Shown: one piece after another, positions 6,878 to 25,234 of the stretch | Layout of the letters: each line of letters begins with the position of its first letter | How positions within the stretch are numbered: position 1 is the stretch's first letter | Assembly: GCA_023701135.1 (NCBI GenBank) | Contig: JAMPXP010000023.1 | Location: 1-64,000 of the forward strand | DNA length: 64,000 nt | Origin: Desulfobacula sp. | GTDB taxonomy: Bacteria > Desulfobacterota > Desulfobacteria > Desulfobacterales > Desulfobacteraceae | Direction: 5' to 3' | Made by a program: the position numbers and the translations under genes | The notes under the pieces: model-generated | Told to the model about the DNA's origin: nothing | Databases searched by the model: none | The model's input: the letters and a program-made list of their open reading frames with translations, nothing else

Positions 6878-8176
6878 ATGATTATTGTGACCACCCATAA
6901 GGGCTCGGATTTTGACGCCATGGCCTCCCTGGTGGCGGCAACCCTGCTGTATCCCGGCGCCAGACCGGTTCTGCCGACATCCATCAACGGCAATCTGAAA
7001 ACCTTTTTATCCATTCATAAGGACCTGTTTAATTTTTATTCGCCCTCGGACATCACCCCGGACCACGTGAAAAAACTGGTGGTGGTGGACACCCATTCCT
7101 GGGACCGGCTGGAGGGCCTGGACAAGCTTAAGGGAAGAAAAGATCTGGAGATCGTGGTCTGGGATCACCATACCGAGGGCGATATGGAGGCCGCAGAGAA
7201 GCACGTGGCTGAAATGGGGGCCACGGTCACCATGCTGGTCCATGAATTAAAAAACCGCCGGACCCTGATCACGCCCATCCAGGCCACCCTTTTTCTCATG
7301 GGGCTCTATGAGGACACCGGCAATCTGACCTTTCCGTCCACCCTTTCCGAAGACGCCTATGCCGCAGGGTATCTTCTGGACCGGCGGGCCGATCTGAATA
7401 TCCTTTCCACGTTTTTAAGGCAGGCCTACGGCAAAAAGCAGAAAGACATCCTCTTTGAAATGATCCAGAAGGCCGAGAGAAGCGAGGTGGCCGGGTTTTC
7501 CATCAGCATTTCCCGGATGGATATCGAGGGCCGGATCCAGAACCTGGCCATGGTGCTTCAGATGTACCGGGAGATTGTCAATGTGGATGTGGCCTTCGGG
7601 ATTTTCAAGGATGTGGAGCGCAACAAATGCATGGTCATCGGCCGGAGCAATGTGGATGAGGTCAATATTGGGGTTCTCATGCGGAGCCTGGGCGGAGGCG
7701 GCCATCCCGGAGCCGGGTCGGCCCTGTTGCACGGCGTCAATCCCGATACCATCGAAGAAATGCTCGTGGAACTCATTTCAGGCAACCAGTATTCTTCCAT
7801 CCGGCTTTCGGATATCATGTCCTATCCCGTGGTTACCGTCACCGAGGACACCAAAATCGAAGAGGTGGCCATGATCCTGAGGGATATGGGATGCACGGGC
7901 GTACCCGTGGTGGACAAGGACGAGAACGTGGTGGGCGTCATTTCCCGGAGGGATTTCAAGAAGGTCAGGAAAACCAATCATATGCAGTCCCCGGTCAAGG
8001 CCTTCATGAGCAGAAAGGTCATCAGCATTGATCATCATAAGAGCGCGGTTGAAGCGGCCAAACTCATGATCAAACATGATGTCGGCCGGCTTCCGGTCAT
8101 GAAGGAAGGAAAACTCATCGGCATCATCACCCGGTCCGACGCCATGATGTATTTTTATGATCTTTTGCCCGATTGA
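6878..8176 (+). CDS. DHH/DHHA1 phosphoesterase with tandem CBS domains
   Basis: A 432-residue cytoplasmic protein. The DHH phosphoesterase core has the metal-binding motifs HKGSDFDAMAS, VVVDTH, and VWDHH (about residue 92), followed by DHHA1 with GGGGHPGAGSA (about 275). After that come two CBS domains (about 310-430: MSYPVVTVTEDTKIEEVAMI and FMSRKVISIDHH), each followed by GCTGVPVVDKD or GRLPVMKEGK-type text; CBS pairs usually bind adenine nucleotides. The same DHH-CBS block forms the N-terminus of some tRNA nucleotidyltransferases, but here the polymerase part is absent. Start taken at ATG 6878 with GAGG six bases upstream rather than ATG 6866. It converges with oleC and the 3' ends overlap by 22 bases. 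Confidence 0.88.
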   Translation: MIIVTTHKGSDFDAMASLVAATLLYPGARPVLPTSINGNLKTFLSIHKDLFNFYSPSDITPDHVKKLVVVDTHSWDRLEGLDKLKGRKDLEIVVWDHHTEGDMEAAEKHVAEMGATVTMLVHELKNRRTLITPIQATLFLMGLYEDTGNLTFPSTLSEDAYAAGYLLDRRADLNILSTFLRQAYGKKQKDILFEMIQKAERSEVAGFSISISRMDIEGRIQNLAMVLQMYREIVNVDVAFGIFKDVERNKCMVIGRSNVDEVNIGVLMRSLGGGGHPGAGSALLHGVNPDTIEEMLVELISGNQYSSIRLSDIMSYPVVTVTEDTKIEEVAMILRDMGCTGVPVVDKDENVVGVISRRDFKKVRKTNHMQSPVKAFMSRKVISIDHHKSAVEAAKLMIKHDVGRLPVMKEGKLIGIITRSDAMMYFYDLLPD

Positions 8177-9822
8177 AGCTTCAGCTTTTTCCGGGCCTTT
8201 TCCGCCAGCTTTTCCCTGAAGATTTTGGAATTGTGACGGATGTCCACGGGAAAGGCTTTTTCAATGAAAATATGCTCGATGCCCGAGGTCAGGGGGTTGG
8301 CTTTGGCCAGGGCCAGCAGTTCCCGGATAAAGGCCTTTTCATCGCTGATGGGGGAAGAGGGCTCAATGAAGATGACGGGTGTCTGGTCGTTTTTCGGGCC
8401 CACCCCGGCCAGGGCGCTGCGGAACACCTTGTCGTGATTGTTAAAGATGGCTTCCACCGGAATGGTGTAAAGGGTTTCCTTGCGGGTCACCACCCGATGG
8501 TTTTTTCTGCCGCAGAACCAGATCCTGCCCTTGGAGTCCCGCCAGCCCAGATCTCCCATCCGATGCCAGATCTTACCGTCGGAATCCGGGATTTTGGCCA
8601 GCAGGTCCGCCTCACGGTTATTGAAATAATGTTCCGTCACCAGGTCGGCTTTGACCATGATCTCTCCCACCTGCTTTTCAGGGGCCTTGATGGTATCGTG
8701 GATCTGGGTGATGGGATTGTCCGTGATCCGGATGATCTCCACCCGGGTATCGCCGATGGGCCTGCCGATACAGAGGCCAAATCCTTTTTCGGTTAGGGAT
8801 TTGGTTTCCGCCAGGATTTCATTGGAAGCCATGGAAATGATGGGCACTGCCTCCGTGGCCCCGTAGGGGGTGTGGACCTGGGCCTCGCCAGTCAGCAGGG
8901 AGGAGAATTGCTCGATATTGGCCGGGCTCACCGGAGCCCCGGCCGAGATGACCCGCCTCAGAGAAGGCAATTTGATCTGGTGCTCCCGTCCGTATTTCCC
9001 CAAGCGGTTGAGCAGGGCCGGAGAGGCGAACATATTGGTGACCCCGTGGTTTTCAATGGCTTCGATGATCTTGCGCGGATTGGCCTTTGCCGGTTTGGTG
9101 GGGTCCATGTCCGGGATCACGGCCGTCATGCCCAGGGCCGGGTCAAACAGGGCAAACAGGGGAAAGGTGGGCAGGTCAATCTCGTCCGGTTCAATCCGGA
9201 AATACTCCTGGATCTGCCGGATCTGGGCGTCAAAATTGCCGTGGGTGTAAACCACACCCTTGGCTGGACCGGTGGACCCGGTGGTGAAGACGATGGCGGC
9301 GGTTTCATCCCGTGTGGTTTTGGCATGGGAATAGGGTTTATAGGGGCCGGTCAGCAACTGGTCCAGGGTGTATCCTCCCCAGAACCAGCGGTTGCCCACG
9401 GTGACCCAGTGTTTGACGGATTTAAAATACCGGGGTTTGAGCTTTCGCAGCAGATGGGCTTTTTCTATGCCGATGAAGGCCACGGGCCGACCTTCTTCCA
9501 AACATTGAAGCATCCTTTCGATGCCCATGCCCGGGTCCACCACCACCGGGATGGCGCCCACCTTAAACATGGCAAAGACGATGATGAAAAATTCCATGCC
9601 CGGCCGGACCATGAGGATGGTGCGGGTTCCCCGGACGATGCCGATCCGCTCAAGGCTGAAGGCCAGGCGGTCCGATTCCCGGTCCAGTTGGGTAAAGGTC
9701 ATCTGGCTGTAAAGGACCCGGCCGGCCCTGTCTCTTCCGGCGGGGTAAACAACGGCTCTTTTGTATGGATAAGCTTCCCGGGATTTTTTCAGGCCCAGGG
9801 CAATATTGGTATAGGATGTCAT
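8155..9822 (-). CDS. oleC: OleC-like AMP-dependent synthetase (beta-lactone synthetase family)
   Basis: A 555-residue adenylate-forming enzyme. It shows the P-loop-like motif FTTGSTGPAKGVVYTHGN (about residue 176), TPYGATEAVPI (about 320), and a C-terminal KNHRVVTRKETLYTIPVEA block. The long motif with GVVYTHGNF and the 'FPLFALFDPALGM' segment are characteristic of OleC, which in the hydrocarbon pathway activates a 2-alkyl-3-hydroxy acid and closes it to a beta-lactone. Without context it could be called a fatty-acyl-CoA or acyl-AMP ligase. OleC is favoured by its position as the last gene of an operon with OleA and OleB homologues. Its ATG overlaps the stop of the upstream membrane-protein gene by four bases, implying translational coupling. 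Confidence 0.85.
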   Translation of the reverse strand: MTSYTNIALGLKKSREAYPYKRAVVYPAGRDRAGRVLYSQMTFTQLDRESDRLAFSLERIGIVRGTRTILMVRPGMEFFIIVFAMFKVGAIPVVVDPGMGIERMLQCLEEGRPVAFIGIEKAHLLRKLKPRYFKSVKHWVTVGNRWFWGGYTLDQLLTGPYKPYSHAKTTRDETAAIVFTTGSTGPAKGVVYTHGNFDAQIRQIQEYFRIEPDEIDLPTFPLFALFDPALGMTAVIPDMDPTKPAKANPRKIIEAIENHGVTNMFASPALLNRLGKYGREHQIKLPSLRRVISAGAPVSPANIEQFSSLLTGEAQVHTPYGATEAVPIISMASNEILAETKSLTEKGFGLCIGRPIGDTRVEIIRITDNPITQIHDTIKAPEKQVGEIMVKADLVTEHYFNNREADLLAKIPDSDGKIWHRMGDLGWRDSKGRIWFCGRKNHRVVTRKETLYTIPVEAIFNNHDKVFRSALAGVGPKNDQTPVIFIEPSSPISDEKAFIRELLALAKANPLTSGIEHIFIEKAFPVDIRHNSKIFREKLAEKARKKLKLQSGKRS

Positions 9823-10574
9823 AAGAATTTCTTTTTCAGCATATACAGGGTTCCCTTGATCAGGCCCTGTGGAGGCGTCTCTTCCGGTCGTATGGTTTGG
9901 GTCAGTTCCTGGGCAGGGGCAAGGGCGGCGCCTGCAAGTTCAGTCAGTTCCTTATTTCTTTCATTTATCTGGATCATGGCCTGTTCCGGATTGACACGGA
10001 ACAGAACGTAGATTTCTTTAACCGGTTTTTCAATTTTTAAAAAGCCTTTTTGCAGATTTATTTTTGCTTTTTCCCAGACTGCTTTTTCCTTTTCCGCAAT
10101 TTTCCCCTGTTCCGGATATTTTTTTGCGATCCCGTCTATCCGTGCAATTTCCTTGTCCATCAATGTGATTTGTGTGTTACAGGTCAGAAAGGCGGCATAG
10201 AGGTCCGGGAAATGGTCAAAACAGAACCGGATCATTTCTTCCGGAAGGTTGATATGCTTTAATTCCGTTTTTTGATACACCGCTTTCAGGGATGCGGGAT
10301 CCTTGGGGGCAAAATACAGTTTATAGACCAGAAAAGAGGAGGCGCCCAGGGCAATGAGAACGAGAACGGCAACAAAAATAAGCTTTTTGGGGATCTGTAT
10401 TCTTTTTTTTGCTTTTTTTTCAGACGTTCCGTCTCCAGGTGTTTCAGGATCCTTGGAAGTCTTTTTCTTATCTTTTTTTTCCTCGGGCTTTTTTTCCTTG
10501 TCATTTTCCCCGGATTTTTTTGAAGACGCTTCTGTTTCGCCGTCCTTTTTTTTCTTTTTCAAAAGTTTAAGCAT
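9819..10574 (-). CDS. Lys-rich single-pass membrane protein with coiled-coil, unknown function, inside the ole operon
   Basis: A 251-residue protein I do not recognise. Residues 1-65 are extremely Lys/Glu-rich and low in complexity (starting MLKLLKKKKKDGE). One membrane segment follows (LIFVAVLVLIALGASSFLVY, about 67-87). The remaining 160 residues are mostly helical with heptad-like text (KEIARIDGIAKKYPEQGKI, INERNKELTELAGA) and end basic, LKKKFL. The likely topology is a positively charged cytoplasmic tail, one membrane pass and an external or periplasmic helical domain. It has a strong GGGGGG ribosome-binding site, lies 45 bases after oleB, and overlaps oleC by four bases. Position suggests it serves the Ole enzymes, perhaps as a membrane anchor; that is inference. 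Confidence 0.7.
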   Translation of the reverse strand: MLKLLKKKKKDGETEASSKKSGENDKEKKPEEKKDKKKTSKDPETPGDGTSEKKAKKRIQIPKKLIFVAVLVLIALGASSFLVYKLYFAPKDPASLKAVYQKTELKHINLPEEMIRFCFDHFPDLYAAFLTCNTQITLMDKEIARIDGIAKKYPEQGKIAEKEKAVWEKAKINLQKGFLKIEKPVKEIYVLFRVNPEQAMIQINERNKELTELAGAALAPAQELTQTIRPEETPPQGLIKGTLYMLKKKFL

Positions 10575-10619
10575 ACCGTCCCCCCTTAACCCGGTTTAAG
10601 ACCTGCATCCTGATCCACC

Positions 10620-11534
10620 CTATCGTGTTAAAAAGGCGTTGATCAGAGCCAGGGTCTCTGCGGGTTTGTCTTCAAACAGATAATGGCCTGCGTCATGGAA
10701 CACATGGGTTTCCGCCCCTGGAAACCGGCGTTTGAACTCATTTAAAAAGGTCAGATCAAATACAAAATCCCTTGCCCCCCATAGAAACAGGAGGTGTGAT
10801 TCAGCCAGCAGATGTAAATGGCGGTCCACATGATCCACAAGGGCATAACTCCGGTCTTTTTCACATATCGGTATGTCCTGGACAAATTTTAAGGTGGCGA
10901 TGCGGTTTTTCCAGGAATTATAGGGTTCCACAAGGCCGGCCTTCACCTGGCGGGGTAATTTTTTTTCAGGGGCCAGATACAGGGCCCCCCGGGCAAAGGC
11001 ATTCAGCCCGAGGACCGCCGGGACTGCGAAAAAGGGAACATATTTGATCAGTCTGAGAAGAAAGGGAAAGGTTTTTTCTTTGGGCAGGAAAAACCCGGAG
11101 GTATTGGTGATGACGATCTTGTCTATTTTTTCGGGATGCCGGACGGCAAAGGCCAGGCCGATCATGCCCCCCCAGTCGTGGACCACCAGATGGATCTTTT
11201 CCGTAATATTCAGGCGGCCGACAAAGGTTTCAAGATCCCTGACCCTGGATTCAAGGGTATAGGCATAGGCTTTGGCGCCGGGTTTGTCGGAAAAGCCGCA
11301 ACCGATATGGTCCGGAGCAATGGCCCGGAAATTTTTGGGCAGGCCGGTGATGAGATTCCTGAAATAAAAGGACCAGGTGGGATTGCCGTGGACCATGAGG
11401 ACGGGTTTTCCCCGGCCTTCGTCCACATAATGAAGGGTCTGTCCCCCGATTTCCATGAATTTGGATTCAAAGGGATACAGTTCCGCAAAGGTCCGGGTGG
11501 AGGTCAGGGTTCCGTTGATGGATTTTTCTACCAT
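10620..11534 (-). CDS. oleB: OleB-like alpha/beta hydrolase (beta-lactone decarboxylase family)
   Basis: A 304-residue alpha/beta hydrolase. Oxyanion-hole text VHGNPTWSFYFRNL (about residue 49), nucleophile elbow VVHDWGGMIG with Asp at the nucleophile position (about 118), and catalytic His in HDAGHYLFED (about 280). A haloalkane-dehalogenase-like Asp nucleophile is what OleB uses to break the beta-lactone into an olefin and CO2. Alone this could be a haloalkane dehalogenase or epoxide hydrolase; placement directly after oleA, overlapping it by seven bases, supports OleB. The predicted substrate is the cis-beta-lactone delivered by OleC. Confidence 0.85.
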   Translation of the reverse strand: MVEKSINGTLTSTRTFAELYPFESKFMEIGGQTLHYVDEGRGKPVLMVHGNPTWSFYFRNLITGLPKNFRAIAPDHIGCGFSDKPGAKAYAYTLESRVRDLETFVGRLNITEKIHLVVHDWGGMIGLAFAVRHPEKIDKIVITNTSGFFLPKEKTFPFLLRLIKYVPFFAVPAVLGLNAFARGALYLAPEKKLPRQVKAGLVEPYNSWKNRIATLKFVQDIPICEKDRSYALVDHVDRHLHLLAESHLLFLWGARDFVFDLTFLNEFKRRFPGAETHVFHDAGHYLFEDKPAETLALINAFLTR

Positions 11535-12580
11535 CTCACACCCAGGATATAACAGTTCAGGCCGGAGCCCACGCCGATGAAGGCCACCAGGTCTTCCGGC
11601 TTTAAAAAGCCCCTTTCATCGGCAATGGCGGCGGTAATGGGAAGGGAGACCGTACCGATATTCCCAAGGAAGGGAAAGGTGCAGAAATCCTTTTGTATGT
11701 CCTGGTTCAGGGCCTGGTAGAATTTCTGGTGGTGGATGGCCCCGACCTGGTGGCCGATGAATTTATCCGGCTCATGGTCTGACAGGTTGAATTCATTTTT
11801 AAAGGCCATAAAGGTTTTCTGCGCCAGGGCCACCCCCTGTTCCAGAACATCCTGGGCCCGGGTTCTCATGATGACCCGGGAATGGGTGGGCATGCCCTTG
11901 TCTTCAAAGCCCCAGTGGCAGAGATCAAAATGTTGAATGGCATTTCTCACCACCCCGCCTTTCAGGGCGTGTTTTCGGTTCTCCGGGTTGCCCAGGGTAC
12001 CGTCGGTGAGAAGGACGGCGGCGGCTCCTGATCCGCCGGTCATGGTGGCAATGGTGTCTTTGTAAAAATCAATGCTGTTGTGGGCATTGATTTCATCAAT
12101 GGTGGCATCCACAATCTGCCGGGCCGTTTCACAGGACACCACCAGGCCTGCCCGGATATTGCCCAGTTCGATTTCATTGGCAATCTGGACCATGCCCGTG
12201 ATCATACCGAGACAGGCGCTTTTCACATCAAAGACGTGGGCCTTTTCCCCCAGGTTCAGGCGGGCGGCAACGGCACAGGAGGTGGCCGGTTCAAACCCGT
12301 CCTGGCAGACCCCGCAATAGACCAGGGCCCCGATCTGGTCAGGGGAGATCTCGGCTTCATCCAGGGCCCTTTGCCCGGCAATGGCAGCATGCTCGGCCAG
12401 GGTATGGTCCCTGTCCCAGTACCGCCGCTCCCGGATGCCGGTCAAGGCTTCTAGTTGGCCCGGCGCAAATCCCACGGCCGTGTAAAAGGGCAGGAGTTTT
12501 TTTTCCAGTTCTGCGGTGGTGACCACCCGGGAGGGAAGTTCATATCCAAAGGATTCAATAAATACACGTGAATATTTCAT
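11528..12580 (-). CDS. oleA: OleA-like thiolase-fold enzyme (head-to-head acyl condensation)
   Basis: A 350-residue ketoacyl-ACP synthase III-type protein. Motifs seen: GYELPSRVVTTAELE (residues 12-26), LTGIRERRYW (46-55), DGFEPATSCAVAARL with Glu97, and the nucleophile Cys123 in FDVKSACLGM; later IGHQVGAIHH (His) and FLGNIGT (Asn) supply the other thiolase-fold catalytic residues. The opening text and the Glu before the Cys fit OleA, which condenses two acyl chains head to head to a 2-alkyl-3-ketoacid, better than FabH. Translation is coupled to the upstream megasynthase: ATG overlaps its stop by four bases, with TGGAGA just upstream. FabH-like priming of the neighbouring synthase is the main alternative role. 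Confidence 0.85.
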   Translation of the reverse strand: MKYSRVFIESFGYELPSRVVTTAELEKKLLPFYTAVGFAPGQLEALTGIRERRYWDRDHTLAEHAAIAGQRALDEAEISPDQIGALVYCGVCQDGFEPATSCAVAARLNLGEKAHVFDVKSACLGMITGMVQIANEIELGNIRAGLVVSCETARQIVDATIDEINAHNSIDFYKDTIATMTGGSGAAAVLLTDGTLGNPENRKHALKGGVVRNAIQHFDLCHWGFEDKGMPTHSRVIMRTRAQDVLEQGVALAQKTFMAFKNEFNLSDHEPDKFIGHQVGAIHHQKFYQALNQDIQKDFCTFPFLGNIGTVSLPITAAIADERGFLKPEDLVAFIGVGSGLNCYILGVRW

Positions 12581-15500
12581 TTGCGTCTCCAGAAAGATAC
12601 CAGGTCATCCTGGGTCAGGCCCGCCAGTTTCATGCCCATATTCCGGTAAAGGACAATCCTCAGGTCATCGGAAAACATATGGGCATCGGCCAGGACATAG
12701 GGTTCGGGCCCATAGGCCATTTTTTTGATTTCCAGCTCGTACCGGGCTTTTTTTGTCTTGGGTGTCACCGGTCCCCGGCATTTCAGATCGCTTTCATTGC
12801 CCGGAAGAATATCATAATACACATCCTCCCGGTCACTTACCCAGCCCGTCCTCTGGGTGAAAATTCTCAAGGCATGGGCGCAGCATTCATACATGAGGGT
12901 GCCGGGCATGACCGGATCATCGATAAAATGACAGGTTAAAAACCAGTCATCGGGCCGGATGTCGGCTTCGGCAACGATGGAGCCGAGGCCGAACCGGCCG
13001 CCCTTTGGATCAAATTCAAGAACCCGGTCAATGAGGTGCATCCGGCCGCCGGGAAGAAAAAGCTTGGTTCCGAGTCGTTTGCCCCTGAATTCAGGTCCAA
13101 AGGCAAGCGCCAGGTCCCCGGTTCTCAGGGCCTGGACCTGATCCTCTGAAAATCCGGTCTTGAACACCGGGACCAGGGGAGAAATTTCAGGCAGGAGAGC
13201 TGTTTTTTCCAGATCCTCTTTTTTCAGGATAATGCCCCCTGAATTTTCAACCTCGGCTTCCGTGAAAAAACCGGCGCATCCGTTCCGCATGGAAATCAGG
13301 AGCTGGTTGCCGACATAGCCTTTATAATGGAAAAAGAACAGGTAAACCTCTCCCTGTTTTAAGAACCGGTCGATTTCAATATGGTATTCAATGGTCTCTC
13401 CGGGTTGGGGCAGGGTCCGGTGAAAGGTCACCCGGGCATCCAGGAGCCGGTATTTTCTTTTGCCTTTGACCACATGGTCGATGCCCAGCCAGGCGCAGAG
13501 AAAAAGGTCGGCCTGGCCGGCTTCAATGGAAATGGAAACCGGGGCCTTGCCGCCGTCCAGGTACCAGGCCCCCTGCCGAACATCGTGCTGGGTGACAATG
13601 CTTCCCGAGGTCAGGGAAAGCATTTCCCCCCGGATCTCCATGATCCGGTCCACCAGCATCAGGGGTTCCGCCGGAAGCCTGACCCTCACCGGATAGGTGT
13701 CGATGATGTCAAAGGACTCTCCCAGGACCTTGCCGGCCTTTCCCACGGCATATTCAAGGCATTCTTCCCGGTCGAGAAAGGGGGCCGGAGCTTGGCCTTT
13801 TATCCCATCCGGGGCCTGAAGGACGCGGCCTGCCAGGCGGGTCAGGGCCTTAAACTGTTTTTCCATTTCCAGCATATTCTGTTTTGAGAATTCCAGGAAT
13901 TTTTCATGGGCAAGGGCGGTTTCAGGATTTCCGGGTAAGAAGGGGCCGGGATGAAATCCGGGGTCCGGGACTGGAGTCGCTTCATGGGCCGCTTCAGGAG
14001 CTGTTTCAGGAGCCGGTGCTAAAGGGGCCGAGGCTGGCCGCATGCCGGGAACTGGTCCCCGGCTGGTTTTTAGAACCAGTCTTTTCCGGGCTACGGCAAG
14101 GGGGTCCTGACGGATATCGGATTGAAACGGACGTTTAATAGGGGGGTGTTGACCCTTATAGGCTTCAAGAACGGCATGGGACACGGTGCCGGCCAGGGAG
14201 ACGGAAGCGACACCGGCTTTTTCCGGCAGCCCCCGGTGATAAAGGCCCAGAGCGGTTTTGATGATTGAAAACAGGGAAGAAACAGCCCCGGTATTCCCAA
14301 TGACGGAAGCCGCGGAGGCAATAGAAAAATCCGGAAAGGAGGACCCGGGGAAAAGGGTGTCCAATGCTTTGGCTTCGGCCCTGTCATGATCCGTGACCCC
14401 AGGGGCTGCGGTTTCATAAAAGCTGATGTCGGAAAGGCCGGTTTCTGAATCGGCCAGTGCGGTTTCCAGGGACCGGAGGTAAAGGGATTCCAGGGCTCCG
14501 GGGTCAGGGTGGGTTTCTCCGGGGAGGGGGCCGCCCGAGGCATCTGAAATACCGGTGATCACCCCGTAAATCCGGTCCCTGTCCAGGATGGCCTGGTCCA
14601 GGCGTTTCAACACAAGGGCCGCGGCCCCTTCAGAGGGCAGGATATTTTCGGAATGGGGTTTTGCCCCTTCATGAAGGGCAAATTGCCGGACATCCCCGCC
14701 AAGGTCCACACAGGCGCAGATAAAGACATCGGTCTCATGGCTGCCGAGGGAATGAACCGCCGTTTCAATGGTTTTCATGCCGGAACCGGCGCCGGCGGAA
14801 AGGGTGAAGCAGGGCCCGCCCAGCTTGAATTCCCGGGCCACCCGGGAGGCCGTGATGCCGCCCAGGGCCCCCAGGGTCCGGTTAAAGGTCAGGGCAGGGG
14901 AGAGCTGGTCTCTGATCTTTTTCTCGACGGGCCCGGCGGTCCATCTCAAATGAAAATCCGTGGCCCCGTAATCGAATTCAATGCCCACGGCGCAGCCCAT
15001 GCCGTGCCGGGGCGGTTCCCCGTCCAGGGGCCGGGGACTGATGCCCGCATCTTCCAGGGCGCCTTTGGCGGCCTTGAGCAAAAGGAGGTGCTGGGGCAGG
15101 ATGTCTTCCATCTGAAGGGGGGGGATGTGGAATTCCCCATAATCGATTGAAAATTCATCCAGGAAATAGCCTTTTTTTTCCGGGACGGCGCCGGTCCTTC
15201 TCCACCGGGTTCCGGGCAATTCCGGGGTCAATTGCGTTTTGCCCAGGACGAGGTCCCTGAACCCGGAAAGGGAATCGCAGTCCTTTAAAAGGGTTCCCAT
15301 GCCGATGACGGCGCAGGGAACCGGTTGAACCCGTTCTGTCTTTTCCGGTTGTGAAAGGGGTGCTCCACCGGGCCGGGAAGGGGGCCTGTATGCTTCAGCC
15401 CTGTACGCTTCACCCCTGTATTCTTCGACAAGGATATGGGCATTGATGCCGCCGAAGCCAAAGGCGCTGACGGCGGCCCTCCGGGGAAGGCCGGGTCCTG

Positions 15501-16731
15501 CGGGTTTCCATTCTTCCACCTCGGTCTGGACCCGGATATGGGAATGGTGCAGGGGGCTTTGGGCCGGGGGAGCGGTGAAATTCAGGGAGGGCGGCAGGAT
15601 GCCCCGGTTCATGGACAGCAGGGTCTTGATGAAGCCTGCCGCTCCGGCAGCGGTCAGAAGATGGCCGATCATGGATTTTACGGATCCTATGGAAAGAGGG
15701 GCTCCGGAGCAGCCGGAAATACGGTAGAGTTCATGGATGCTGGAAAGCTCCACCGCATCCCCCACAGGGGTGCCGGAGCCGTGGCATTCCATGTACTGGA
15801 TGTCGGAAGGAGACCATCCGGCCTGTTCATAGGCCTGGATCATGGCCCTGACCTGGCCTTCCGAGGCCGGTCCCACCAGGGTTCCCTCGATATCGTTGGA
15901 TACCCCGGCCCCCGTGATCACGGCATGGATGGTATCGCCGCAGGCAAGGGCGTCTTCCAGCCGTTTCAGGACCACAATGCCGGCGCCCTCACCCACCACC
16001 AGCCCGTCGGCGGTCTTGTCAAAGGCGGCGCACCGTCCCGAGGGCGACAGGGCCTGGAGTTGGGTAAATCCGATCTGGGTATACAGGGCATCGGGCCTGG
16101 AAACGCCGCCGGCCACCATGATATCCGCTTTTCCCAACTGCAGGTGCTCACAGGCCAGCTTGACGGCAAAAAGGGAAGAGGCGCAGGCCGCATCCAGGGT
16201 GAAGCAACCGGCTTCAAACCCCATGGCCCTGGCCAGGATGGCGGCGGGAAGAAAGACCATGCCCGTATTTAAAAAATCTTCAGGGCCGGGGGCCTTATAG
16301 GTTTTCCCGCACAGAAGCTGCCGGGAAAAATCCGAAGACCGGTCCGTGGGAAGGGCGATGGCGGCAAGGATCACCCCGGTCCGCTGTTTGTCTGCTTTTG
16401 TGTGCCGGCATTGCAAAAAAGCCTCCCGGCCGGCATGGAGAACCAGTTGATGGACCGGGTCAAGCAGGGAAAGAAGGCTTGGGTCCATAAGAAAACCCGA
16501 GGGATCAAAGTCAAAATGGTCAATGAGCCCTGCTTTGTTGGAAACGGCCTTGTCCGGAACCGGGGTGTTGGAGACAAAGTCCTGAACCGGCCCGGCCCAC
16601 CGATGATCCGGAACCCGGATGATGCAGTCTTTTTTTTGAAGGATGTGGTCCAGGAAAATGTTTGTGTTCCCGGCCTGGGGGAAGACCCCGGCCATGGCGA
16701 CAACGGCAGTTTTTCCGGTCATTTTTTTCAT
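12577..16731 (-). CDS. PfaC-like multidomain synthase (KS-CLF-DH-DH)
   Basis: A 1384-residue megasynthase. Domain order: active ketosynthase (about 5-430) with DAACASSLFAV (Cys near 180), ECHGSGTPVGDA (His near 315) and SVKSMIGHLLTAAG (His near 352); a second ketosynthase fold (about 465-870) lacking these residues, as LSAGAGSGMKT replaces the Cys motif and YETAAPGVTD the His motif, i.e. a chain-length-factor-type domain; a Pro/Ala-rich linker (about 890-960); and two FabA-type hot-dog dehydratases (about 1010-1180 with LMLVDRIMEI and SIEAGQADLF; about 1230-1384 with HLIDRVLEF and CHFIDDPVMPG). This is the PfaC arrangement of polyunsaturated fatty acid synthases. No ACP, AT, KR or ER domain is present and no pfaA, pfaB or pfaD lies nearby. 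First gene of the ole operon. Confidence 0.85.
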   Translation of the reverse strand: MKKMTGKTAVVAMAGVFPQAGNTNIFLDHILQKKDCIIRVPDHRWAGPVQDFVSNTPVPDKAVSNKAGLIDHFDFDPSGFLMDPSLLSLLDPVHQLVLHAGREAFLQCRHTKADKQRTGVILAAIALPTDRSSDFSRQLLCGKTYKAPGPEDFLNTGMVFLPAAILARAMGFEAGCFTLDAACASSLFAVKLACEHLQLGKADIMVAGGVSRPDALYTQIGFTQLQALSPSGRCAAFDKTADGLVVGEGAGIVVLKRLEDALACGDTIHAVITGAGVSNDIEGTLVGPASEGQVRAMIQAYEQAGWSPSDIQYMECHGSGTPVGDAVELSSIHELYRISGCSGAPLSIGSVKSMIGHLLTAAGAAGFIKTLLSMNRGILPPSLNFTAPPAQSPLHHSHIRVQTEVEEWKPAGPGLPRRAAVSAFGFGGINAHILVEEYRGEAYRAEAYRPPSRPGGAPLSQPEKTERVQPVPCAVIGMGTLLKDCDSLSGFRDLVLGKTQLTPELPGTRWRRTGAVPEKKGYFLDEFSIDYGEFHIPPLQMEDILPQHLLLLKAAKGALEDAGISPRPLDGEPPRHGMGCAVGIEFDYGATDFHLRWTAGPVEKKIRDQLSPALTFNRTLGALGGITASRVAREFKLGGPCFTLSAGAGSGMKTIETAVHSLGSHETDVFICACVDLGGDVRQFALHEGAKPHSENILPSEGAAALVLKRLDQAILDRDRIYGVITGISDASGGPLPGETHPDPGALESLYLRSLETALADSETGLSDISFYETAAPGVTDHDRAEAKALDTLFPGSSFPDFSIASAASVIGNTGAVSSLFSIIKTALGLYHRGLPEKAGVASVSLAGTVSHAVLEAYKGQHPPIKRPFQSDIRQDPLAVARKRLVLKTSRGPVPGMRPASAPLAPAPETAPEAAHEATPVPDPGFHPGPFLPGNPETALAHEKFLEFSKQNMLEMEKQFKALTRLAGRVLQAPDGIKGQAPAPFLDREECLEYAVGKAGKVLGESFDIIDTYPVRVRLPAEPLMLVDRIMEIRGEMLSLTSGSIVTQHDVRQGAWYLDGGKAPVSISIEAGQADLFLCAWLGIDHVVKGKRKYRLLDARVTFHRTLPQPGETIEYHIEIDRFLKQGEVYLFFFHYKGYVGNQLLISMRNGCAGFFTEAEVENSGGIILKKEDLEKTALLPEISPLVPVFKTGFSEDQVQALRTGDLALAFGPEFRGKRLGTKLFLPGGRMHLIDRVLEFDPKGGRFGLGSIVAEADIRPDDWFLTCHFIDDPVMPGTLMYECCAHALRIFTQRTGWVSDREDVYYDILPGNESDLKCRGPVTPKTKKARYELEIKKMAYGPEPYVLADAHMFSDDLRIVLYRNMGMKLAGLTQDDLVSFWRRK

Positions 16732-16837: not shown

Positions 16838-17617
16838 TCAGGTGAAAATCAGAAAAAACCCTTTGACAACGGATCTTGCCAGGAGCCACAGGGTGATGCC
16901 GAAGAGGATAAGGGCCAGGGATCTGTCGAAACGGTTTTCCTTCCGCTTTTCGGCATATCCCATCACCCAGCCGAAAAAGATGCCGGAAACGAGTCCTCCG
17001 GCATGGCTGTAATTGTTGATATTGGGCATTAAGAATCCGATGACGATAAGGCTGATCACCCATCCTGTGGTTTGCTTGTAAACCAGTTTACCCCAGGTCC
17101 CGCCCCGGGATTTGCCGAAAAAGAGCAGGGCTCCGATGAGCCCGCAAAGCCCGGAGGAAGCGCCGATGGTCAGATAGACGTTGCCCATATAGGACAGAAG
17201 AAAACCTGAAATGCCCGTGAGGGTATAGATGGAAAACATCCGGCACACGCCGAATTCCTGCATCACCAGCGGGGCCACGGTGCGCAGGGCCAGCATATTG
17301 AAGACGATGTGGAGAAGTCCGCCGTGAAGCCAGTTGGCCGTAATCAGGGACCACCAGGCCTCGAATTTGACAATGGGCAGACGGCCGGAAGCCCCCAGGA
17401 AATTCAGGACATCCATGGAAGGGGTCAGGGCATAGAACGGGTTCAGGCTGAATACCGTATTTCTGCCGCTATAGATCAGGCTGACGGCATACATGAAGAT
17501 ATTGCCGTAGATCATTGCCTTGAGGACAAATCCGGGGGTTAGAAAATCATGGTCAGGTCTTGTTCTGGTCATTCTTCCGGCCTTATCAATAAATGTTCCG
17601 ACGGATGGGATCGGCAT
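16838..17617 (-). CDS. Rhomboid family intramembrane serine protease
   Basis: A 259-residue membrane protein with six to seven hydrophobic segments. It has the rhomboid signature: WWSLITANWLHGGLLHIVFN with the WLH-x-x-x-x-H-x-x-x-N block (about residue 90-108), the catalytic Ser in TIGASSGLCGLIGAL (GASSG, about 155), and the catalytic His in NNYSHAGGLVSG (about 212). Rhomboids cut membrane-embedded helices of partner proteins. Its ATG shares the A of the upstream gene's stop codon (TAATG), so it is coupled to the lipoprotein gene, hinting that the lipoprotein or its partner is a functional associate. Substrate unknown. Confidence 0.9.
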   Translation of the reverse strand: MPIPSVGTFIDKAGRMTRTRPDHDFLTPGFVLKAMIYGNIFMYAVSLIYSGRNTVFSLNPFYALTPSMDVLNFLGASGRLPIVKFEAWWSLITANWLHGGLLHIVFNMLALRTVAPLVMQEFGVCRMFSIYTLTGISGFLLSYMGNVYLTIGASSGLCGLIGALLFFGKSRGGTWGKLVYKQTTGWVISLIVIGFLMPNINNYSHAGGLVSGIFFGWVMGYAEKRKENRFDRSLALILFGITLWLLARSVVKGFFLIFT

Positions 17618-18216
17618 TACTGTTGCAAGGCCTTTTTAAGGACCTCTTCCATGGACTGGTTGACAAATCGTTCAAGCTTTTCCGGTGTAAAGGTCATCTC
17701 CGTTCTTTCAAGGGTCAGAGAAATGGGTATGGTTTTCAATTGATCGCCGTTGGTTTGTTTCCCGATGAACAGGGTGAGGTCGATTTCAAGAACCATATCG
17801 GTGGTGGGCCCATTCTTTTTGGCCCGGCATTCAAATTTATTGATCTGTCCCGCCACAATCTGTTCAAATCCGCCGATGCTACCCTTTACACCATCGGGTG
17901 AGAGTTTCCAGGCAGCCATGGGGATGACCTCAAACCCGGTTTGCCGGAAATAATCGCCCACGGATGTATTGAGGGTGTTTGCAAGGTTCATGCCCTGGAC
18001 AAAATAGGTTTCCTGACTTCGGTCCATGAGGAGCCGGTATCCCACATATCCGCCGTTCCTGTCGGTCCTGTTGTCTTTAAACGGGGCCAGGCCCATGACC
18101 CCGGTCTGGGTCTTTTCATGATCCGCCGTATAGGAAATGTTGATAAATTTCTGGCCGGGAGTGGCACATCCCAGCAAGAGGAAAAGAACGAAGATCATCC
18201 AGCATTGTTTTTTCAT
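17617..18216 (-). CDS. Lipoprotein of unknown function (YajG-like layout)
   Basis: A 199-residue lipoprotein. Signal peptide and lipobox WMIFVLFLLLGCATPG give a lipidated Cys near residue 17. The mature part contains NISYTADHEK, LAPFKDNRTDRNGGYVGYRL (the 'pF.DnR' block seen in YajG-like and related lipoproteins) and the C-terminal EKLERFVNQSMEEVLKKAL helix. Probably attached to the outer membrane facing the periplasm. It sits 19 bases after an unknown gene and overlaps the rhomboid start. The family assignment is tentative; the lipoprotein call is firm. Confidence 0.8.
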   Translation of the reverse strand: MKKQCWMIFVLFLLLGCATPGQKFINISYTADHEKTQTGVMGLAPFKDNRTDRNGGYVGYRLLMDRSQETYFVQGMNLANTLNTSVGDYFRQTGFEVIPMAAWKLSPDGVKGSIGGFEQIVAGQINKFECRAKKNGPTTDMVLEIDLTLFIGKQTNGDQLKTIPISLTLERTEMTFTPEKLERFVNQSMEEVLKKALQQ

Positions 18217-18235
18217 GAAGCAGTCTCCTTTTTTA

Positions 18236-18778
18236 TTAATTTAGTTTGATATCATCGATGGTGATGGTATTTAAATATTCTTTGACGGCCCCCAGGGTCA
18301 GGGTAAACATTTTTGTTCCAAAGAGGACGGCGACGGCATTGTCTGCACTGCCACAGGTTGATGCAAAGGCGGGTCCGATGATGACGGCAGGATTTTGGGA
18401 GGTTTCCGGATTGTTTTGCATGGCATGGAGATAGGTATCGAGCCGTTCTTTCAGGATGTTGAAATAATCAACGGATTTGCCTGTGGTGGTCTGGGTCAGA
18501 CTGGAAATGCTGCCGGAGATCTCCCTGATATTTTCCCAGAAGATCTGGGTCAGCGGTCCTTTGTTTTTATCCGCAGCCGGCATGAAAAAAGAAAGGGCCC
18601 ACCCCACACTGAGAATTTTAAGCAATTGAAGTTCATATTCGATGGTGGTTTTGTTCAGGCTGGAATCGGCAGGAATGGCGGCCAGAAGCTCTTTTAAATC
18701 GGTCCTGTCAATGGCAAAGGCAGAAAGAGCCTGGGCCGTTTTTTCAACATTCATGCTTATTTTATGTTCCTGTTCCAT
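18236..18778 (-). CDS. Hypothetical protein, first gene of the rhomboid operon
   Basis: A 180-residue protein without signal peptide. Mostly helical; one moderately hydrophobic stretch (KILSVGWALSFFMPAADKNK, about 53-72) and a small-residue-rich stretch later (VIIGPAFASTCGSADNAVAVL). No family recognised. A good Shine-Dalgarno (GAGGAAAC) precedes the ATG. It is divergent from the MoaD-like gene with only about 100 bases between, and is followed after 19 bases by the lipoprotein and then the rhomboid protease, so the three likely form one transcript. Confidence 0.7.
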   Translation of the reverse strand: MEQEHKISMNVEKTAQALSAFAIDRTDLKELLAAIPADSSLNKTTIEYELQLLKILSVGWALSFFMPAADKNKGPLTQIFWENIREISGSISSLTQTTTGKSVDYFNILKERLDTYLHAMQNNPETSQNPAVIIGPAFASTCGSADNAVAVLFGTKMFTLTLGAVKEYLNTITIDDIKLN

Positions 18779-19115: not shown

Positions 19116-19817
19116 ATGGAGGCATTTAAAGAACGGTATGACCGCAATTTCAACACCTTCTCCCCTGATGAGCAGAAAAAGCTGGGGGCCTCCACGGTGG
19201 CCATTATCGGCCTGGGGGGCCTGGGCGGCGGTGTCTGCGAAATGCTGGCCAGGGTTGGAATCGGCAGGCTGATCCTGGTGGACGGGGATGTGTTTGAAGC
19301 CAGTAATTTAAACCGCCAGGTATTGAGTGAAGAGCGGCTCATGGGGGTTCCCAAGGCAGAGGCGGCAAGGGACAGGGTGAGAGCCGTCAATTCAGGGATT
19401 GAGGTGATTCATCGCATCGAATTTCTGGATGAACGAACCCTTTACGACACCATAAAAGGGTCCGATGTGGTCATGGATTGCCTGGATTCCATTGACACGC
19501 GGTTCAAACTCCAGGATGCGGCAAAAAAAGCAAAGATATCCATTGTCTCCGGCGCCATAGCAGGGGTCACCGGCCAGGTTACCGCCATTTTTCCGGAAGA
19601 CAAGGGGTATGCCCTGATATATGGGGAAAAAAGCCGGAAACAGGGAAAGGGTGTGGAAACAAAAACCGGGAATATTGCCTATTGCGCTCTTTTCACGGCA
19701 GCCCTCCAGTCTTCGGAATGTGTGAAGATTATTTTAAACCGCGGGGATATCCTGCGCAATAAGCTCTTGATCGCAGAGCTGTGGACCAATCTCTTTGAGG
19801 TGATGGATCTTGTCTGA
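19116..19817 (+). CDS. E1-like adenylyltransferase (HesA/MoeB/ThiF family), short form
   Basis: A 233-residue ThiF-fold enzyme. Nucleotide-binding GLGGLGGGVCEML (about 28-40), DGDVFEASNLNRQ with the catalytic Arg (about 55-67), PKAEAARDRV with the Lys, and MDCLDSIDTRF with the catalytic Asp (about 125). These residues activate the C-terminal Gly of a ubiquitin-like protein. The zinc CxxC pairs of MoeB/ThiF and an obvious catalytic Cys are not seen, nor a rhodanese domain, so it resembles the compact HesA-like form that may only adenylate. Sits three bases after the MoaD-like gene and overlaps the sirtuin start by eight bases. Confidence 0.88.
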   Translation: MEAFKERYDRNFNTFSPDEQKKLGASTVAIIGLGGLGGGVCEMLARVGIGRLILVDGDVFEASNLNRQVLSEERLMGVPKAEAARDRVRAVNSGIEVIHRIEFLDERTLYDTIKGSDVVMDCLDSIDTRFKLQDAAKKAKISIVSGAIAGVTGQVTAIFPEDKGYALIYGEKSRKQGKGVETKTGNIAYCALFTAALQSSECVKIILNRGDILRNKLLIAELWTNLFEVMDLV

Positions 19818-20553
19818 TACCTATCAACAGGCGGCCGATATCATCAGATCGGCCAAACGCTGTGTGGCCTTTACGGGCGCCGGTATTTCCGTTGAAAGCG
19901 GCATTCCCCCCTTTAGGGGAGAAAACGGTCTCTGGAATAAATATGATCCCGAGACCTTTGACATCCGTTATTTTTACACCCATACCAAAGCATCCTGGGA
20001 AGTCATCCGGGAGATCTTTTATGATCTTTTCGGAAAGGTTGTCCCTAATTTTGCCCATTATGCCCTGGCCCAACTGGAGTCAATGGGATTGCTCGGTTCC
20101 GTGATTACCCAGAACGTGGATAACCTTCATTATGATGCCGGCAGCAGAACCGTCCATGAATTTCACGGATCATTGAAAAAACTGGTCTGCCTAGGCTGCC
20201 GGGCAAAATACACGATTTCGGAGATTGACCTCACCTGCCTGCCGCCGGAATGCGGAAAATGCGGCAAGGTTTTAAAACCGGATGTGATTTTTTTTGGAGA
20301 GGCCATTCCGGAGCCTGCCCGGACCCATTCATTCAATGAAACCAGAATCGCCGATTGCTTTATCCTGATCGGGACCACGGGAGCAGTGGCGCCGGCCAAT
20401 ATGATACCGCCGGCCGCCAGGGCAAACGGCGCAAAAATCATTGAAATCAATCCCGTGGTCTCTGAATACACCCATTCGGTCACGGATGTGTTTCTGAAGG
20501 AAAAAGCCACAACAGCCATGGAAAGATTAATGGATGAAATCAAAGGAAAATGA
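19810..20553 (+). CDS. Sir2-family NAD-dependent protein deacylase
   Basis: A 247-residue sirtuin. GAGISVESGIPPFRG (about 18-32), TQNVDNLHYDAG (about 99-110), catalytic His in VHEFHGS (about 119), and the zinc-binding cysteine pairs CLGC and CGKC. It removes acyl groups from lysines using NAD. The start is TTG at 19810, overlapping the E1-like gene by eight bases; the text then reads SDTYQQAADIIRSAKRCVAF, the normal N-terminus. The neighbours are a ubiquitin-like protein with its E1 upstream and a HIT protein downstream, suggesting a small protein-modification module. The protein lacks the Ala-Tyr-Arg desuccinylase text as far as I can see, so plain deacetylase activity is the default guess. 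Confidence 0.92.
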   Translation: MSDTYQQAADIIRSAKRCVAFTGAGISVESGIPPFRGENGLWNKYDPETFDIRYFYTHTKASWEVIREIFYDLFGKVVPNFAHYALAQLESMGLLGSVITQNVDNLHYDAGSRTVHEFHGSLKKLVCLGCRAKYTISEIDLTCLPPECGKCGKVLKPDVIFFGEAIPEPARTHSFNETRIADCFILIGTTGAVAPANMIPPAARANGAKIIEINPVVSEYTHSVTDVFLKEKATTAMERLMDEIKGK

Positions 20554-20572
20554 TCGATAAAAGGAGTCTTCA

Positions 20573-20908
20573 ATGCCGGGAGATTGTATTTTCTGCAAGA
20601 TCGTCAAAAAAGAGATGCCTGCTGAATTTTTATATGAAGATGAGGTCTGCGTGGTTTTCAGGGACATTCACCCTGCCGCACCGGTCCATCTCTTGATTGT
20701 GCCGAAACACCATATCAGAAGCGTCAATGATTTGAAAAATGAAGAGGAAGCCATTGTGTCCCATCTTTTTCTGACGGCAAGGGATATGGCAAGGCAGAGC
20801 GGGGTCAGGGACTCGGGATATAAGCTCTTGTTCAATGTGGAAAAGGGCGGGGGGCAGGTGATTTTTCACCTTCACCTGCATTTGATCGGCGGCTGGAAAA
20901 GACCATGA
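20573..20908 (+). CDS. HIT-family (HINT-type) nucleotide hydrolase
   Basis: A 111-residue HIT protein. CIFCKIVKKEMPAEFLYEDE at the N-terminus and the catalytic triad motif HLHLHLIGG at the C-terminus are those of HINT proteins, which hydrolyse AMP joined to lysine, amino acids or other groups. A good Shine-Dalgarno (AAAGGAG) precedes the ATG. Its stop overlaps the debranching-enzyme start by four bases. Placement after an adenylating E1 and a sirtuin makes clean-up of adenylated intermediates one possible role; general purine-nucleotide housekeeping is the default. Confidence 0.92.
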   Translation: MPGDCIFCKIVKKEMPAEFLYEDEVCVVFRDIHPAAPVHLLIVPKHHIRSVNDLKNEEEAIVSHLFLTARDMARQSGVRDSGYKLLFNVEKGGGQVIFHLHLHLIGGWKRP

Positions 20909-23900
20909 TAAAGGATGTCACGGTCATCCAGATCCCGGCGCCGGGAGAATCCCGGGTCATGTATGGCGGAGATTGTGTCCGGTTTGAACTCCTGCTTTCA
21001 AAAAAGGTGGCCGGCCGGGCCTGGGTCAGGACGAATCTCGGTTCTGCCGCCGTGTCCAGGCGGGAAATCATTTCCCGCATTGAGAAAAACGAAATCAAGC
21101 TGGATGAAGCCTGGTACGATATTGAAATGGAACAAAAGGACGATCTTGTTTTTCAGATTGCCCTGCCCCTTCATCAGACCGGATATTTCCAGGCCAAATG
21201 TTTTTTTATCCCGGAAAAGACCACCATTCCCATCTGGCCCCAGGGCAAAAATTCCATTATCAATGTGGAGCCGCCGGGCACCTGCTGCGCCAATATCATT
21301 TACAACGCCTTTGTCCGGCAGTTCGGTACATCCAAGTCCGGGGCCGTTGAAGATAAGGACCTGTCGGCCATCATCAAACAACTGGATGCCAAGGGGTATA
21401 CGGTTATCCCGGAATCCGGGAAATTCAGGGATTTAAAGCGGGAAGTGGAATTTATTTTTTCCCGCCTGGGGTGCAGGGTCCTGCACCTTCTGCCCATCCA
21501 TCCCACCCCCACCACCTTTGCCAGGATGGGAAGGTTCGGCAGCCCCTACGCAGCCCTGAATTTTACGGAAGTGGACCCGGCCCTGGCCGAATTCGATCCT
21601 TCGGCCACCCCCCTGGAGCAGTTCATGGAACTGGCCGATACGGTGCATTTCCATAACGGTTATATTTTTATGGACATTGCCATCAACCATACCGGCTGGG
21701 CCGCGTCCATCCATGAAACCAACCCGGAATGGCTGGTCCGAGGGGATGACGGTAGGATCGAGGCCCCCGGTGCCTGGGGAACCGTCTGGGCCGATCTTAC
21801 AAAACTGGACTATACCAATATCGACCTCTGGAAATACATGGCCGATGTGTTTCTGCTCTGGTGCCACAGGGGAGTGGACGGGTTCCGGTGCGATGCCGGG
21901 TATATGGTGCCGGTTGAAGCCTGGGAATATATTGTGGCCAAGGTCAGGACCGAATATCCGGAAACCCTTTTTTTTCTGGAAGGGCTTGGCGGACTCATTT
22001 CAACCACGCGAACCCTGCTGAGCAGGGCCAATTTCAACTGGGCCTATTCGGAATTGTTCCAGAATTATACCCGGGAAGAGATTTCCCGGTATCTGCCCCT
22101 GGTCCATGATATTTCCGATACCTGCGGAAATCTGATCCATTTTGCCGAAACCCATGACAATAACCGGCTGGCTGCGGTTTCAAAACAATATGCAAAAATG
22201 AGGGCGGCCCTTTCCGCTCTTTTCTCCGTCTGCGGCGGGTTTGGATTCGCCAACGGCGTGGAATGGTTCGCCACCCAGAAGATTGATGTCCATGAATCTT
22301 CCAGCCTGAACTGGGGGGACAAGGTCAACCAGGTGGATCATATTGCAAAATTAAATCTGATCCTGAAACACCACCCCACTTTTTTTGCCCACACAAAACT
22401 CGCCCTGATTCAGAAAAACCAGTCCGAATGCCTGGTTCTCCTGCGGCATAATGAAGAATACCGTAAAAAACTCCTGATTCTGGTGAACCTGGACTGTACT
22501 GATCCGGGGGAAGCCATCTGGAGCCGCTCTGATGCGGGGATTAAGGAGATTTTCCTGGTGGATCTGATTTCCGGGACCACCATAAAAACAGAAGAAGAAG
22601 GAGACCGATTTGTCTTCAGGCTTGCACCGGGAGAAGTCCTGGCCCTGACCCCTGATCCGGAAGACTTGAATCAGCTAGAACTGAGCCGCCGGGAGAAGAG
22701 CGAGGCCCCGGAAAGGGTCTATCTTCAGAAACTGAAAGCCAGGGTCCTGTCCATCCGGACGGTATTCAACGGATACGGCCATGTTAAAAATATTGATATT
22801 GAGAAAGAAGCCCTTGAATTTGCACAGCGCCCGGCAGAATTCATCCGCTCCCTGAACAAAAATTCAGAGGAATGCCCTGTGGTTGAATTTCAATTTGAAA
22901 GGGATTTACGGCGCCAGTTGATGGTTCCGCCCGGTTTTTTCCTTCTCATCACCTGCAAGACAGGATTCAGGGCTGAAATTCTGGACGAAAGCAGAACCTC
23001 AAAAACATCCCTGGGGTATGAGGAAGGCCTGCCGACACCGGATAAACGAGGGTTTTTCGCAGTCTTTCACCCCTTTGAAATCCGGAACCAGCATAAGGAA
23101 TATTCCCTCATCCTGAGGGTGTTTGAACCTGACGGCACACGGGTCGAAAAGGTGTTTATCCTGTCCCTTGCCCCCTTTGAGTCCCTTTATATGAACGCCT
23201 CCTTTGCCCGGAAGGAGATTGTCCGGACCCCTTCCCTCAAATTACTGGGCACCACGGCAAAGGGAGGGATGATGCGGGCCGCAGCCTGGTGGGGCAGGCT
23301 CGACAGCCGCTATGATGCCTTTTTGGGGGCCAACCTGGACAAGACCATGCCGGAAAACCGGTGGATGGTGCTTTCAAGATGCAGGATCTGGGCCATATTT
23401 CAGGGGTATTCAAGGGAACTCTTGCCCGATTGTCTGGAACGGTTCACTTTTTCATACCATAACGGCGGCCGGTGGCTGTTTCGGGTGCCTACATCCGAGG
23501 GCAAATACTATGCCCTTGAATTGGACCTGTCCATTGACCATGAGGAAAACCAGGTCCTTTTGATCGTCCGGCGAAGCTCCTCCGGCAAGGATTCGAAATT
23601 TCTCCTCGAAGACAAAAAAGGCATTACCCTGGTCATCCGCCCCGATATTGAGGACCGGTGTTTTCATGACCCGGTCAAGGCCTATACGGGTCCGGAAACG
23701 AACTGGCCCGGAGCGGTCACGGCCTATGAAAAAGGCTTTGAGTTTTCCCTGTCAAACGGAAAAAAATTAGGAGTCGTCCTGTCCAGGGGGGAATTCCATC
23801 ATGAGCCGGAATGGTATTATATGGTCCACCGGTCCATGGAAGCCGAGAGGGGGCTTGACCCGGATTCCGATCTGTTCAGTCCCGGCTGGTTCAGTGTTTC

Positions 23901-25218: not shown

Positions 25219-25234
25219 GGAGAAAGTTTGTCAT

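Follow-up and report, generated by a model that had tools for sequence, protein, structure and literature searches.

In this study, we show that a five-gene operon of a Desulfobacula sp. makes up one half, PfaC with Ole, of a split Pfa-Ole supercluster, since the genes for PfaD and PfaA and the gene for OleD lie on another contig, C10, of the same genome. The operon occupies positions 8155-16731 of the window, by which we mean the whole 64,000-nucleotide stretch analysed (C4:1-64000 of a 4.81 Mb assembly, G000, which is 98.87% complete). In the open reading frame (ORF) list it comprises, all on the minus strand, the genes for a PfaC-like protein (12577-16731), OleA (11528-12580), OleB (10620-11534), a membrane protein designated X (9819-10574), and OleC (8155-9822). 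The PfaC-like and OleA genes overlap by 4 bases and those of OleA and OleB by 7, a 45-base gap separates OleB from X, and X and OleC again overlap by 4; this order and these overlaps agree with a preliminary description of the same DNA, with domains assigned by Pfam/NCBIfam. Taken as a whole, the operon is on balance best explained as part of a split Pfa-Ole pathway leading to a long-chain, probably polyunsaturated hydrocarbon. The pairing of Pfa and Ole is itself known, and what is new here is the form without PfaB and the distribution of a second pair of dehydratase (DH) domains between PfaA and PfaC.

The preliminary description had noted the lack of OleD, acyl carrier protein (ACP), ketoreductase (KR) and acyltransferase (AT). 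This holds for the operon but not for the genome, which encodes OleD, ACP, KR and an AT elsewhere. A putative OleD is found at C10:43967-44944 and is 57% identical to the OleD encoded behind OleC in G046, and the reading of a missing OleD was rejected on that ground. Throughout, counts for the family refer to 35 Desulfobacteraceae genomes (G000-G034), and the comparison set consists of 23 genomes from other families of the order. An OleD match at E <= 1e-10 was obtained in 54 of the 58 genomes; the other four are 56-81% complete. Adjacent genes at about C10:121.3-130.5 kb, unlinked to the window, encode PfaD and PfaA, and both exceed their family cut-offs (609.5 against 449.25 and 1366.9 against 1010.1, respectively). 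PfaA carries a ketosynthase (KS), an AT with the motif GHSFGE, two ACP, a KR, a PS-DH domain and a C-terminal DH pair. PfaA-like proteins occur in 54/58 genomes at E <= 1e-150, and PfaC in 32/35 family genomes; the remaining three are 56-78% complete. One phosphopantetheinyl transferase gene was seen beside a synthase on contig C11, and no genome-wide search for PfaE was made. That synthase (L046:5218-13667; 2551 aa, NMO-KS-AT-ACP-KR-DH) also has ABC-transporter-like genes beside it; it was rejected as a conserved partner, a match at E <= 1e-200 being found in 1/58 genomes only, the source genome itself.

The PfaC-like protein (1384 aa) bears KS, chain length factor (CLF), DH1 and DH2 on one chain and has no AT. 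Two domains of KS fold are detected by Pfam together with one DH of FabA type; a second DH is weaker. Residues 8-880 align (326.7 bits) to 6riw_A, the KS-CLF of the Moritella marina polyunsaturated fatty acid (PUFA) synthase (PMC9138089). The top PDB match, 7zma (356.6 bits), covers the KS portion only. In the KS domain (PF00109 part, 15949-16707) the motifs place Cys183, His317 and His357, which from KS biochemistry we take to be the active-site residues; in the CLF domain (PF00109 part, 14590-15315) the Cys and both His positions appear from the sequence to be replaced. DH1 (13294-13677) gives a weak PF07977 match of 24 bits and is the orthologue of the DH1 found in other PfaC proteins, and DH2 (12652-13056), of FabA type, keeps the motif CHFIDDPVMPG. 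It had been proposed that PfaC alone reshapes a chain made by an ordinary fatty acid synthase (FAS). For the source genome the idea that PfaC by itself acts on type II fatty acids was rejected: PfaD and PfaA are encoded, and our searches found neither FabF (no match at E <= 1e-80) nor FabA/FabZ or FabD as free proteins. Five ORFs, each about 400 aa long, match KS weakly and in part (E 3.2e-7 to 2.2e-4) and are candidate thiolases.

The unlinked PfaA is tied to the PfaC of the window by the second DH pair, which is found on one protein or the other. In the sister families, PfaC has the architecture KS-CLF-AT-DH1-DH2 and ends in a second DH pair, whose last domain matches the C-terminus of the source PfaA at 151-154 bits, whereas DH2 of the same proteins scores 42-48 bits. 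Thirteen genomes had both proteins in hand, and the pair is on PfaA in seven of them (G000, G008, G027, G030, G033, G034, G051), on PfaC in six (G035, G037, G042, G044, G046, G048), and on both or neither in none. Such movement of a domain pair within a lineage is good evidence that PfaA and PfaC would work as one complex, though they are unlinked here.

The order of the genes was followed in two sets of loci: 16 loci of relatives chosen from PfaC search matches, and an OleA-picked set obtained by an OleA alignment scan of named genome contigs, from which the best 80 of at least 513 confirmed stretches were taken. In the first set, OleA and then OleB lie downstream of PfaC in 16/16 loci (in L053 with 1.6 kb between PfaC and OleA), so that the pairing of PfaC and OleA is not due to chance; OleC was seen in 12/16 and X in 9/16. 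In the second set, 71 loci had more than 600 bases of sequence before OleA, and PfaC precedes OleA in 55 of them: in 52 its end is no more than 1500 bases away, and three more (L152, L157 and L179) carry a C-terminal piece of PfaC. OleB follows in 65/74 of these best loci with room for it, OleC in 51/60, X in 20/60 and OleD in 18/52. Thus the membrane protein belongs to the operon of the window, as had been described, but is not a constant member of it. Arrangements that unite the two halves are found in Desulfobacter latus (L138; pfaC-oleA-oleB-X-oleC-pfaD-pfaA, with PfaA ended by the contig end), in G037 (pfaD-pfaA-gene-pfaBC-oleA-oleB-oleC-oleD, one gene lying between pfaA and pfaBC), and in L190 and L193 (PfaA-PfaC-OleA-B-C-D). 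The conserved order predicted for relatives is therefore borne out, and when we asked whether PfaC sits in another cluster in relatives, it was found together with PfaD-PfaA and Ole. In the Desulfamplus metagenome-assembled genomes L144, L145 and L146, OleA stands without OleB or OleC in the available flanks.

The Ole enzymes fit a head-to-head condensation of Pfa-type acyl chains, as had been suggested for this operon. OleA (350 aa) is classed by Pfam/NCBIfam as a KAS III of OleA type, is 51% identical to OleA of Moritella sp. JT01, and has a match to structure 3row (5.6e-49) in which the catalytic Cys is aligned; its catalytic Cys, Glu, His and Asn (C123, E97, H277, N307) are all present and invariant in 14 homologues. 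OleB is an alpha/beta hydrolase of haloalkane-dehalogenase type (304 aa), and its name rests on context, homology, the HDWGG motif and position. OleC (555 aa) is acyl-CoA-ligase-like and of beta-lactone synthetase type, scoring above the cut-off of NF006754 (727.6 against 478). In the pathway that we propose, PfaA and PfaD (enoyl reductase) from C10 and PfaC from the window would assemble as one iterative type I synthase, which would build an unsaturated acyl chain on the carrier domains of PfaA. OleA would then draw on this synthase and join head to head two chains removed from the carrier; OleD from C10 would reduce the resulting beta-keto acid, OleC would close the beta-lactone, and OleB would decarboxylate it to a long-chain, probably polyunsaturated hydrocarbon (C31:9 in known cases).

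Several observations weigh against this pathway. The next-best matches of OleC, to the two olefin beta-lactone synthetase models, lie below the cut-offs of these models (NF045785, 596.8 against 850; NF045786, 584.6 against 900), and the best model for OleD, NF042423, gives 400.2 bits against a cut-off of 580. No OleC was seen downstream in 4/16 of the PfaC-picked loci, and no PfaC piece lies beside OleA in 16/71 of the OleA-picked loci, Moritella JT01 and the lone Desulfamplus OleA included. A synthase of about 3800 aa, discussed below, could supply OleA instead of PfaA-PfaC. Moreover, the AT profile is absent from the PfaC of the window and no PfaB was found elsewhere in the source genome, either as a separate protein or fused to PfaC. 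The motif GYSxG with its Tyr marks bacterial PfaB, a long-chain acyltransferase which is needed for docosahexaenoic acid (DHA) and has been proposed as the off-loader; in the M. marina system no DHA is made once pfaB is deleted (PMC12895367). Because PfaB is missing here and is needed there for DHA, a full PUFA-type chain is not assured.

The loss of the AT is nevertheless open to a reading of its own. Among 58 PfaC rows (56 different), 23 have the AT (GYSLGE) and the DH pair, four have an AT (GHS) and no pair, three have the pair and no AT, and the remaining 28, the PfaC of the window included, have neither; the source genome has three AT matches (PF00698), all inside large synthases and none in PfaC. 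OleA takes acyl chains off Pfa carrier domains (PMC6463001), and if the synthase works without PfaB, OleA would be the only off-loader in sight, thioesterases, PlsX and PfaT not having been searched for. Since the PfaB-type domain thought to finish and release the chain is missing, the synthase may mainly feed hydrocarbon synthesis. We tentatively put forward, as a possibility rather than as our expectation, that this is a PUFA-type synthase dedicated to hydrocarbon, in which the PfaB AT was lost, OleA was kept translationally coupled to PfaC, and a side branch became the main exit; polyunsaturated chains of about C16 would then leave chiefly by head-to-head condensation, giving hydrocarbon without PUFA in the phospholipids. 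An exit chiefly through OleA is qualified by the findings that AT-bearing PfaC proteins also precede OleA in relatives and that the AT was lost in more than one event: on a KS-CLF tree the group without AT and pair needs four changes, and the AT-bearing PfaC of L134 falls within it. In the OleA-picked set, AT loss and Ole linkage are not separable, as these loci were found through OleA.

It could also be that PfaA-PfaC-PfaD makes ordinary saturated and monounsaturated chains, as the main FAS or a part of it after loss of the type II system, and that the Ole enzymes turn such chains into the corresponding olefins. We regard this, the main rival, as unlikely. In its favour, besides the missing FabF and the confinement of AT to the three large synthases, PF07977 occurs in the source genome only inside PfaC and PfaA. 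FabF scores above cut-off in 0/35 family genomes against 19/23 from other families, and FabZ in 1/35 against 17/23; in the family, the type II route to fatty acids seems to have been lost. For Desulfobacterium autotrophicum the Type S cluster has been proposed as the core synthase (PMC3098273), and Pfa can cover the loss of FabD (PMC8174602). However, a second synthase (3722-3958 aa; KS, AT, ACP, KR, DH and ER-type domains) occurs in 10/10 family genomes examined and offers a simpler main synthase. This type I protein of about 3800 aa, with three KS matches (G000:C23, L047:4232-15646), seems to be the candidate main FAS, and both synthases may contribute. Standalone KS proteins fall just below the FabF cut-off of 493.75 in G018 (486.2), G020 (484.6) and G009 (474.6), and outside the family PfaA-PfaC-Ole stands beside a type II system.

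An end product other than a hydrocarbon, namely a beta-lactone, a ketone or a conjugate, with OleB doing something else, appears improbable. No curated OleB model was passed and the best NCBIfam matches of OleB are haloalkane dehalogenases below cut-off, OleD is unlinked to the operon, and OleA-OleC-OleD clusters without OleB make beta-lactones (PMC7064751); however, this operon does encode a putative OleB, the OleB gene adjoins OleA throughout the PfaC-picked loci and in most of the OleA-picked loci with room for it, and the genome has a putative OleD. Still harder to credit is a decaying remnant, as has been suggested for the pfa genes of Desulfobacterium autotrophicum (PMC4882568), for although the parts are dispersed and AT and DH pair are gone from PfaC, the frames are open, the KS, DH2 and OleA motifs are intact, PfaC, OleA, OleB and OleC are 76-88% identical to their G020 counterparts, PfaC occurs across the family, and the DH pair has moved rather than been lost.

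The split Pfa-Ole pathway has close relatives among known systems. It had been stated that Pfa and Ole clusters occur as separate units, but Geobacter bemidjiensis, also a strict anaerobe, has a tandem pfaD,A,B,C-oleA,B,C,D-pfaE whose product is C31:9 (PMC4882568). The enzyme set and the succession of pfaC, oleA, oleB and oleC are the same, whereas here the split sites lie far apart, no PfaB was found, OleD is unlinked, and the gene for X is extra. Formation of C31:9 in Shewanella oneidensis depends on the Pfa synthase, and E. coli given OleA together with pfaABCDE makes the 31:8 ketone (PMC6463001). The Pfa and OleABCD systems of Shewanella, Photobacterium and Moritella (PMC6463001) resemble ours in that OleA draws on Pfa, as we propose here, and that PfaA, C, D and OleA-D are all encoded; these genera have PfaB and a type II synthase, in contrast to a PfaC without AT here and FabF, FabZ and FabD not found in our searches. 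Deltaproteobacteria contain pfa-like clusters that are often linked to ole genes (PMC3098273), and the pfaBC-fusion secondary lipid synthases of Shulse and Allen (types C, I, K and S; PMC3098273) share the phylum, the PfaBC-type protein and the frequent linkage to ole, but differ in that the PfaC of the window lost the AT and that the second DH pair is on PfaA. OleABCD of the Xanthomonas campestris type (3row) has the same OleA fold and catalytic residues and is fed by a type II system, while here a PfaC gene in the same operon suggests another substrate source. The preliminary description had spoken of an uncharacterised pathway. This stands insofar as no product has been described for Desulfobacteraceae in the literature searched, but the pairing is known from other bacteria. 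Neither a PfaB-less form nor an olefin from Desulfobacteraceae was found in that literature, with subscription papers, including the main Ole survey (PMC2893475), lying outside the search.

Membrane protein X (251 aa) has a Lys-rich tail, one transmembrane-like helix (63-88) and a helical bundle (112-225), and belongs to no Pfam/NCBIfam family. Of the 224 PDB matches that a fold search (mean pLDDT 74) listed at E <= 10, none reached E <= 0.001, the best being 0.57, and a fold-based function for X was dropped on that account. A rhomboid protease gene (16838-17617, minus strand) lies 106 bases upstream of PfaC and is a conserved neighbour, its end being within 150 bases of PfaC in 12/20 loci. 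It is part of a group of genes in the same direction (16838-18778) that also encode a probable lipoprotein of 199 aa and a protein of 180 aa. Beyond it, a divergent block at 19116-27808 (ThiF, Sir2, HIT, a 1437-aa glycogen-debranching protein and a phosphorylase) is ordinary in appearance.

If this account of the operon is correct, the exchange of the DH pair between PfaA and PfaC would give natural variants for learning which dehydratase sets which double bond, and the family would hold a natural PfaB-less synthase for testing PfaB against OleA in chain release. It would also mean that Desulfobacteraceae, which are strict anaerobes, make long polyunsaturated hydrocarbons and may be a source of such compounds in anoxic sediment.

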